A stretch of DNA of 64,000 nt. It comes from Bacillota bacterium. GTDB taxonomy: Bacteria > Bacillota > Clostridia > Oscillospirales > Oscillospiraceae. Of this stretch, positions 13,605 to 17,194 are shown in pieces; position 1 is the first letter of the stretch; the number at the start of each line of letters is the position of its first letter. The notes beneath the pieces are model-generated. The model was given only the letters and a program-made list of their open reading frames with translations. It did no database searches and was not told where the DNA came from. The translations under genes were made by a program, and so were the position numbers. The stretch spans positions 1 through 64,000 of the forward strand of contig JAETOJ010000012.1 in the NCBI GenBank assembly GCA_021768085.1. The letters are read 5' to 3'.

Positions 13605-14156
13605 ATGCCCAATTATGACATCATCCCTCTGGCCCTTGACCTGCTGGAGTACACCATCCAGCGGGTCAAGGCCAAGGAGGCCGAATACCGGCAGGTCAAG
13701 GGCTACGTCATGGAAAACTGCCAGCTTGTGGAGCGGGTGCTTTACGAAAAGGTCAAGGATGACGGCAAGCCCCATTTCCCCAAATCCCAGACGTTCCACC
13801 TGTGCGCCCGGCTGGAGGACTGTGCCGCTGACATCCTGGAAAAGTGCATCTCCGCCGATGGCCGTTTCTTTGAAACGGAGTATGAGGAGCGGCTGCGGGA
13901 CCTGGACGTTGTGGTGGTCAAGTGTGACACCATGCTCCAGTATATCAACCTCAGCTTTAAGAAAGGGTACATTTCCGGGGACCAATGCCACTACTGGGCG
14001 GAGATGGTCCGCCCGGTCAAGCAAAAGGCCTTTAACTGGCGGAGGAATGACGGCACCCGTGCCGCCGCACTTCGGGAGGCCAAGGCGGCCCAGGAGCTTG
14101 CCCAGATGGCGCAAATGGCCCAGCAGATTGCGGAGGCCATGCAGCGGAGCCCCTAA
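13605..14156 (+). CDS. avd: Avd-like DGR accessory protein (predicted helical bundle)
   Basis: Helical 183 aa ORF immediately upstream of the TR; segment LQYINLSFKKGYISGDQCHYWAEMV resembles Avd/23S-IVP family four-helix bundles. Confidence 0.65.
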   Translation: MPNYDIIPLALDLLEYTIQRVKAKEAEYRQVKGYVMENCQLVERVLYEKVKDDGKPHFPKSQTFHLCARLEDCAADILEKCISADGRFFETEYEERLRDLDVVVVKCDTMLQYINLSFKKGYISGDQCHYWAEMVRPVKQKAFNWRRNDGTRAAALREAKAAQELAQMAQMAQQIAEAMQRSP

Positions 14157-14211
14157 AGCGGATATACCAGCCAAAGGCTGTTATATTTGGGTGTGACCTA
14201 TATTTTGCGTT

Positions 14212-14311
14212 TTCCCCGAACACGAACAACACCAACAACGCCTGGAACTTGAACTCCGATGGCAACCTCAACAACAACAACTGCTCCAACACCAACGGGT
14301 CCCGCCCCGCT
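14212..14311 (+). repeat. DGR template repeat (TR)
   Basis: 100-bp ungapped match to 16029-16128; differences only at TR adenines; 14 AAC codons in register. Confidence 0.97.
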
Positions 14312-14488
14312 CTGATGGTCAAGGCCGGACTGAGTAGGCCCAAAGCCGAAAACAGCGCCATCCATCACATCAAAGGAGGTCACATCCAGCCTTGAGTTTT
14401 TCAAGGCAAACACATTGCGCCGATGCCGCCCGCCCGGCATTGAACGGGAGGGGGCTGCTGGTCCTGTCACCCGGCACCTAAACGGCGC

Positions 14489-15559
14489 ATGATGAGAGGA
14501 TGGCCAGCCGTACAAAGACAGGAGGCCACCCGCTTGAGATTTTCCGATATTTGCACCTTTGCGGTGCTCTACGCCGCATATCTTGCCGCCCGGAGGGGCA
14601 AGCGCTCCAGAGCTGCCACGGCCCACTACGAGGCCCACCTGCTGGAGCGCATCATCAACCTGGTCTATATCCTCCGCACGAAAATATATAGGCCGGGCCG
14701 TTTCCGTGTGTTCTACGTTTTCGAGCCCAAGAAAAGGCTGGTGCAGGCCCCGGCGTTTGTGGACAAAGTGGTCCAGCACGCCATAGTGGACAATCTGCTC
14801 TATGACCGCATCACGCACAGCTTTATCCTGGATAACTACGCATCCCAAAAGGGCAAGGGCCTCCACTTCGGCCTGGACCGCCTCAAGGGCTTTTTCACGG
14901 AATACTGGAACAAATACCGCACGGCGGAGGGCTGGGTCCTCAAGTGTGATGTGCGCAAATTCTTTGCAAGTATAGACCATGACAGGCTCAAGGAAAAGCT
15001 GCAAAAGCTGGACCTTGAGCCTGTTGTTTATGACCTGCTCTGTACTTACATCGACTGCTCAGACGGCTTGCCCCTGGGCTATCAGACCAGCCAGCTCTTT
15101 GCCCTGCTATTCCTGGACGATTTTGACCACTTCGTCAAAGAACGGCTCCACATCCGCTGGTATGGCCGGTATATGGATGACTTTTTCCTCATCCACCCGG
15201 ACAAGGAATATTTGCAATTTTGCCTCCGGGAAATCAAGGCCTACATGGCCAGCCTGGGGCTGGAGCTCAATGAGAAAACCCAGATTTTCCCCTTGCGCAA
15301 CGGGATTGACTTTTTGGGCTTTCACACCTACCTCACGGACAGCGGCAAGGTCATCCGCAAGCTGCGGCACAGCAGCGTCAAGCGGATGCGGTCCAAGCTC
15401 CGCCGGTGGGAGCGGGACTACCCCACGGGGCAGGTCACCCGTGAGGAAATCCTGCAATCTTGGCAGGCGTGGGATGCCCACGCCGCTCACGGCAACACCT
15501 GGCTCCTGCGCCAGCAAGTGCGGGACCGTGTGCAAAACATTCTAAAGGAGGTCATCTAA
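14489..15559 (+). CDS. DGR reverse transcriptase (start may be TTG 14534 after CAGGAGG)
   Basis: RT motifs: KCDVRKFFASIDH, GLPLGYQTSQLFALLFLDDFDH (GxxxSQ), RWYGRYMDDFFLIH (YMDD), NGIDFLGFHTY. Confidence 0.97.
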   Translation: MMRGWPAVQRQEATRLRFSDICTFAVLYAAYLAARRGKRSRAATAHYEAHLLERIINLVYILRTKIYRPGRFRVFYVFEPKKRLVQAPAFVDKVVQHAIVDNLLYDRITHSFILDNYASQKGKGLHFGLDRLKGFFTEYWNKYRTAEGWVLKCDVRKFFASIDHDRLKEKLQKLDLEPVVYDLLCTYIDCSDGLPLGYQTSQLFALLFLDDFDHFVKERLHIRWYGRYMDDFFLIHPDKEYLQFCLREIKAYMASLGLELNEKTQIFPLRNGIDFLGFHTYLTDSGKVIRKLRHSSVKRMRSKLRRWERDYPTGQVTREEILQSWQAWDAHAAHGNTWLLRQQVRDRVQNILKEVI

Positions 15560-17194
15560 TGGCAACTGTCACCCTTGGCAGCAAGGCAGAGGGCTCCATC
15601 ATCAAGCTCAAGGAAAACGGCGTGCTGGTGGAGTTTTACATTGCCAAGCAGAACTATGAAAGCGGGCTGAACGGAGCCGGGCGGGTGCTGGTGGTCCGCA
15701 AGGACTGTTATGACCAGCGCCAGTGGCACAGCTCCAACATCAACGCCTACGCCAGCAGCGCCATTGACACCTGGCTCAACGGCACCTACAAGAACCTGCT
15801 GGACGCCAACATCCGCACGGCGATGGGCACCACCAAAATCTACTACACTCCCGGCAACGGGAACAACAGCAAGACCACCTTGCAGCGGTCCGTGTTCCTG
15901 CTGTCCGCCACGGAGCTGGGCCAGTCCCACACCTACATGAACGCTGAGGGCACGGCGCTGTCCAGCACGGTCCTCAATCTGCTGAAAATCGCAAAGCTGA
16001 ATGGCTCCGCATATCCTCAGTGGACCCGTTCCCCGCGCACGGGCAGCACCGACGGCGCCTGGTACTTGTACTCCGATGGCGGCCTCGGCAACCACTACTG
16101 CTCCAGCACCGACGGGTCCCGCCCCGCTTTCACTCTCCCCTCCTCCCTCTATGTCAGCGATGACGGCTCTGTGTCCGTCAACACCGCCCCCGGCACCCCC
16201 TCCAGTATCAGCTATCCCACCAGCATCAACGGCGGCACGGACATCACCGTGAGCTGGGGAGCGTCCACGGACGCTGAGGGCAACCTTGCGGGCTATGTCG
16301 TGGAGCGGAGCACCAACGGCGGCACCACCTGGGCCCAGGTCTACCAGGGCAGCGCCCGGAGCACCACCAACAACGTGGCCTTTGGCACCGCCTCCGTCAT
16401 GTTCCGGGTCAAGGTCTATGACACAGAGGGCCTTAACTCCGGCTGGAAAACCGGCAGCAATGTCACGGTGGTCAACAACCGGGCCCCCTCCGCCCCCGGC
16501 TCCATCACGGTGCCCGCCGCCGTCCGGGGCGGGGCCACCCTGCCCATCTCCTGGACCCGTGCCACGGACAGCGATGACAACCTCAGCGGCTATGAGCTGG
16601 AGCGGAGCGTCAACGGCGGCGCATGGTCCCAGGTCTACAAGGGCTCCGCCCTGACCTTTACGGACACCATCACCGCCGGGTGGAATACGGTGGCCTACCG
16701 TGTCCGGGCCTATGACACGCTGAACGCCACCAGCGCCTATGTCACCAGCGACACCCGCACGGTGGACAATAACGCCTATCCCGTCATCACCAGTGACACG
16801 GCCTCCGGCACGGACCTGGGCACCAAAAATGAGGGCTTTGCCCTGACCTACAAGGTGACCGATGCGGACGGGGACACCGTGACGGTCAAGGAGTATCTGG
16901 ACAACGTGCTCCAGCGGTCCTATACGGCCACCCTGGGCCAGTCCAACACGTTCCAGGCCGTCACCGCCGCCAACTATCAGAAAATCCTCAACGGGGCCCA
17001 CACCCTCAAGGTGGTGGCCAATGACGGCAAGGCGGACAGCGGACGCCACGGCGGACATCAAGAGCGGAGCCAACCATGTCTTTGAGAACAAGACCGCCGC
17101 AAATGGCTTTGCGTTCAACTTCAAGCTGGACGTGAGCCGGGGGGGCAGTGACACCGGCGGCTATATTTCCAGCATCGGAGGTGCCTTTGAATGA
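15559..17194 (+). CDS. DGR variable protein: N-terminal variable (DUF6273/CLec-like) domain followed by FN3-like domains; reading frame broken (stop 17085; shifted frame ends 17194)
   Basis: ATG overlaps RT stop (TAATG) with AAAGGAGG RBS; contains VR; two FN3-like repeats (GGTDITVSWGASTDAEGNLAGYVVERS / GGATLPISWTRATDSDDNLSGYELERS). Confidence 0.9.
16029..16128 (+). repeat. DGR variable repeat (VR), residues ~158-190 of the target protein
   Basis: Aligns to TR over 100 bp; ends in invariant A-free GGGTCCCGCCCCGCT (IMH-like). Confidence 0.97.

Follow-up and report, generated by a model that had tools for sequence, protein, structure and literature searches.

A prophage DGR of known kind whose target gene follows the reverse transcriptase, as in its closest relatives

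Introduction

Several described phages carry DGRs with which a newly found cassette can be compared. For the Bordetella phage BPP-1, the spacer that follows the template repeat (TR) folds and recruits the complex of the reverse transcriptase (RT) with the accessory variability determinant (Avd), and a preference of the RT for G has been discussed (PMC12875486). A survey from 2012 described DGR components as occurring without strict order (PMC3521204). Variable repeats (VRs) usually lie at the C-terminus of the target (PMC8144416), and tentaclins are a described exception to this placement; they consist of an N-terminal VR domain with a β-hairpin followed by 1-4 Ig/Fn3 domains, and their DUF6273 domain has been assigned to the C-type lectin fold (PMC10743442). 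Two targets have been reported by the authors of nd12/nd4 (PMC10743442) and by those of Lelie, who also reported a DUF6273 target (PMC11792537). The 2018 paper on Faecalibacterium prophages reported Avd in Mushu and Lagaffe only; in our analysis, FP_Brigit, FP_Toutatis and Lelie also have ORFs 5' of the RT that match this family (L145:3971-4762, L079:4084-4656 and L078:4084-4656, respectively). On translational coupling in DGRs, our search of the literature returned nothing on point.

Here we analyse a DGR within a stretch of 64,000 nt of contig JAETOJ010000012.1, referred to as the window. FP_Brigit (MG711465; PMC5883640) shares the order Avd-TR-RT-VR with it, its RT being 56% identical and its target 55% identical end to end; however, the FP_Brigit target starts 24 nt past the RT stop without any overlap, and a large serine recombinase is found there in contrast to the transposase of the window prophage. 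Lelie (PMC11792537) and FP_Toutatis (PMC5883640) likewise show Avd-TR-RT-VR, in Lelie together with a second VR, but their RTs are 57% identical to that of the window and the target ATG, with the start as called here, lies ~20 nt past the RT stop. In nd12 (OR777946) and nd4 (OR777945; PMC10743442), the order is TR-RT-VR1, the last 16 and 11 nt of the RT, respectively, are shared with the target, and the VR lies near the 5' part of target 1, with a remote VR2 in addition; an IS30 family transposase is also present in nd12. Their RTs are nevertheless 50% and 43% identical to that of the window, and the VR domain of target 1 has diverged. BPP-1 has in common with the window the Avd family, a TR followed by spacer and RT, and A-specific mutagenesis, but its VR gene is upstream and its VR is located at the C-terminus of Mtd.

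Results

The window contains the final part of a tail operon belonging to a prophage, in which genes for a baseplate J-like protein and a tail-fibre N-terminal protein are followed by Avd, TR, RT and target, and then by a CBM-containing protein and lysis genes. Tail sheath and tape-measure genes lie upstream of the cassette, the IS30-type transposase lies downstream, and an endolysin-like gene is among its neighbours. The coordinates (Table 1) agree with the first-pass annotation, which had proposed the order Avd-TR-RT-VR with the target gene downstream of the RT; the VR-upstream order of the BPP-1 type (VR-TR-RT) is absent here. The same genome carries two more DGRs, L002 (G000:C33) and L003 (G000:C75), one of them TR-RT-VR and one VR-TR-RT.

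Table 1. Features of the DGR cassette and its surroundings in the window
Feature	Position	Strand	Evidence
Avd (accessory variability determinant), 183 aa	13605..14156	+	PHROG 3206, E=4e-22
5' arm of the 12-bp RNA helix enclosing the TR (TGGGTGTGACCT)	14188..14199	+	pairs with 14377-14388
Template repeat (TR)	14212..14311	+	100-nt match to VR
TR-RT spacer RNA, upper limit, including the 3' helix arm 14377-14388	14312..14533	+	covarying helices
DGR reverse transcriptase; start may be TTG 14534	14489..15559	+	PF00078, 5.6e-19; PHROG 1423, 9.5e-118
Target Shine-Dalgarno AAAGGAGG, within the RT gene	15544..15551	+	sequence
TAATG, overlap of RT stop and target start	15557..15561	+	sequence
Target gene, tentaclin-like (DUF6273 + Fn3/Ig), 508 aa, truncated	15559..17085	+	PF19789, 1.8e-25
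Variable repeat (VR1), target residues ~157-190	16029..16128	+	TR/VR alignment
182-nt deletion point in the target	17040..17041	+	segment present in relatives
IS30-type transposase, near the prophage right end	21328..22368	+	PHROG 4646 transposase, 1.6e-114

The PHROG matched by the Avd ORF, 'Avd protein of DGR', is a family common to the BPP-1 Avd ORF; against NCBIfam NF033474 DivGenRetAVD, the match has E=1e-6 with a score under the model cut-off. The RT ORF matches RVT_1 and the RT PHROG, and on the tree it groups with DGR RTs that carry TR/VR pairs. As an alternative start of this ORF, the TTG stands behind an AGGAGG at 14520-14525, and the ATG at 14489 is not conserved among relatives. 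TR and VR align without gaps over 100 nt with 18 mismatches, and 18/18 of these are at TR adenines. Adenines account for 32 of the 100 TR positions, and the chance of all 18 falling on them is 1.5e-11 (hypergeometric). The substitutions in the VR (13 A>G, 3 A>T and 2 A>C) lean toward A>G.

The 12-bp helix that encloses the TR is paired in 100% of cells across 13 sequences, with 7 of its 12 pairs changed on both sides, and further helices follow it in the 13 TR-spacer regions. The Rfam family RF03077 (RT-2) gives a full-length match at 14320-14510 with 26.4 bits (E=0.0013), which is below its gathering score of 40. By analogy with BPP-1, in which the spacer RNA recruits RT-Avd, a similar role of the spacer RNA in the window is likely.

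The first-pass annotation had further described the target as starting inside the RT stop codon behind a ribosome-binding sequence of its own, and had held that the two genes appear to be co-expressed. The junction is indeed built in this way, the target ATG (15559-15561) overlapping the RT stop TAA (15557-15559) by one base, with its own AAAGGAGG 7 nt before the ATG. The arrangement is conserved: in all 33 loci whose RT is at least 76% identical to that of the window, AAAGGAGG lies inside the RT gene end and the start codon of the target is placed -10 to +3 nt relative to the RT stop. TAATG itself is present in 19 of these 33 loci, and in the rest the genes abut, are spaced by 2-3 nt or have a longer overlap. 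A promoter or terminator separating RT from target was looked for and rejected, as nothing stood above chance: the interval between the two genes has no terminator-like site on the + strand, and promoter-like matches in it are at chance level. Given the conserved junction and the lack of a terminator between the genes, co-transcription and co-expression of RT and target are likely, which upholds the earlier suggestion, and a putative translational coupling of the two is plausible.

It could be argued that the overlap is a selected regulatory device, in which coupled translation would fix the ratio of RT to target protein. This would fit the uniform junction in the 33 closest loci as well as the recurrence of TAATG or a longer overlap in more distant loci (e.g. 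L120) and in nd12. However, TAATG is found in little more than half of the closest loci, the spacing becomes loose at 48-60% RT identity (e.g. +24 with an own Shine-Dalgarno in L030 and L087), and several other junctions in the same late operon also overlap or abut, with start codons as chosen in this analysis. We therefore regard a regulatory device as improbable; the close spacing of RT and target is normal late-operon packing.

This genome carries a second, remote VR on another contig. When this genome was scanned with a pattern of 64 nt from the TR in which A was replaced by N, one more perfect site was obtained on contig C47 (C47:122433-122496 in G000; L152, L163), within a small ORF with weak similarity to DUF6273. 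Homologues of this second VR occur in F. muris, L157, L158 and L160 (by locus label L150, L157, L158 and L160), and among the five copies the within-site differences are all at TR adenines, with nearly identical flanks. The possibility that the second VR belongs to a different mobile element was rejected, since L158 and L160 link it to the lysis/transposase region: in both, one contig joins homologues of this phage region to the second target, and homologous phage DNA runs from the IS30-type transposase into the second-target module. Because these two loci carry both regions on one contig, the second VR probably lies at the opposite end of this prophage. In this genome the two regions are on separate contigs, with the second VR 3.4 kb short of the C47 end and the window beginning with base one of C88. 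In nd12, nd4 and Lelie, a second VR is found ~10-14 kb from the first. One might go on to suppose that the junction with its Shine-Dalgarno in the RT gene was selected for joint late-lytic production of the mutator and its main target, while the same TR diversifies a distant early-module gene. We consider this unlikely, but if true, one DGR would be editing two genes under different expression programmes.

The target belongs to the DUF6273 family (Table 1). In structure models, an N-terminal domain carries the VR on a hairpin and is followed, in the intact homologue, by four β-sandwich segments with Fn3-type matches; DUF6273 is placed at residues 41-195 and the VR strands at 166-170 and 176-180 (model, pLDDT 94.5). 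The best PDB match of the VR domain in Foldseek was 9qa6 (TM 0.70), followed by the Legionella Lcl C-terminal domain, and named C-type lectins appeared at E>1 only; the target profile had no match among PDB sequences. The intact homologue in L005 (605 aa) shares 55% identity over its full length with the Hoc-like protein of FP_Brigit, and for its C-terminal 308 aa the identity to target 1 of nd12, a tentaclin, is 42%. The VR begins at 26% of the intact protein length, and the target family has the tentaclin layout of an N-terminal VR domain with hairpin followed by Ig/Fn3 domains. The conserved C-terminal Ig-like domain of tentaclins is present in the relatives but not in the window copy, where it is lost with a 182-nt gap. 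The gene family is tentaclin-like, and the window copy is a truncated member of it.

In comparison with all close relatives considered, 182 nt are missing at 17040/17041, from where the gene runs out of frame to a stop at 17085, and the protein is reduced from 605 to 508 aa. The segment is present in L005, L006, L082, L083, L022 and Flintibacter muris DSM 110149; a relocated copy was sought in the rest of this assembly and was not found. The gap reflects a genuine deletion or else a mistake in the assembly. In the former case, the adhesin made by this prophage may not be attached to its virion.

Comparison of near-identical prophages reveals A-specific divergence. Along 3440 nt, 18, 23 and 34 positions separate the window from L005, L006 and L007, respectively, and the 100-nt VR holds 16, 19 and 22 of them; all VR differences except one (in L007) are at TR adenines, and the TR has 0 differences. 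Judged from these sequences, the VR appears to be diversified from the TR and the cassette to be active, as prophages that are otherwise near-identical differ almost only in the VR. The assembly of Flintibacter muris DSM 110149 breaks inside the VR on both sides, as may be expected from VR heterogeneity, with other causes being possible. We conclude that this is very probably an active DGR, through which a prophage of a gut bacterium hypermutates one segment of an adhesin on its virion. A TR/VR pair surviving in this prophage as an inactive relic is very unlikely: the loss of the last target domain through the 182-nt deletion would suit a relic, but RT, Avd, TR and spacer RNA are intact, and the VRs of near-identical prophages differ at TR adenines, even though recent activity in this one lysogen is not thereby proven.

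The first-pass annotation had considered the gene order noteworthy in relation to BPP-1 and had itself named a survey of related DGRs as the check. For this survey, loci with RT relatives were taken from viral contigs, genome contigs, the host family and phage records, and were searched for repeat pairs with mismatches falling on the adenines of one copy; the finder recovered BPP-1 as VR-TR-RT, in agreement with its annotation. After removal of near-duplicates, 82 DGRs were obtained (43 VR-TR-RT, 37 TR-RT-VR and 2 VR-RT-TR), and because this sample is centred on the window RT, these proportions are not those of all DGRs. TR-RT-VR was found in 24/24 non-redundant DGRs with an RT at least 48% identical to that of the window, from several bacterial families, and likewise in five phages already published, FP_Brigit, FP_Toutatis, Lelie, nd4 and nd12. 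In the RT tree, loci of like order group strongly together, and well-supported branches require the TR-RT-VR label to have changed no fewer than five times. Being standard in the clade, which is the finding that the first-pass annotation had named as refuting it, and present in sequenced phages, the order is ordinary, and its supposed peculiarity was not borne out. That this prophage alone acquired the order through a recent rearrangement, for which the difference from BPP-1 would speak, is ruled out by the same order in the 24 closest non-redundant DGRs and the described phages.

Discussion

The locus represents a known kind of DGR and adds one more real, active and ordinary example to it, with an order and a junction that are conserved among its relatives. 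We propose that the DGR operates within the late operon of a prophage that has a contractile tail and an IS30-type transposase. We infer that a single late transcript would probably carry the tail genes, Avd, the structured TR RNA, the RT and the tentaclin target, with translation of the last two possibly coupled. The TR RNA would be reverse-transcribed by RT and Avd, with mistakes made at adenines, and the resulting cDNA would then take the place of the homologous VR within the target's DUF6273 domain. If the target is, as we infer, located on the virion and involved in receptor binding, such VR replacement would give rise to progeny virions with differing adhesins. The position of the target at distance zero after the RT would be accounted for by phage late genes being so packed and by an RT lineage that keeps its target downstream.

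Cassette order in DGRs is clade-specific, and in this branch of gut phages the target regularly follows the RT. Order alone is therefore no sign of a new mechanism. As a well-sampled active DGR with two targets and strong covariation in the RNA that surrounds the TR, the system should be useful for the study of DGR RNA outside BPP-1.
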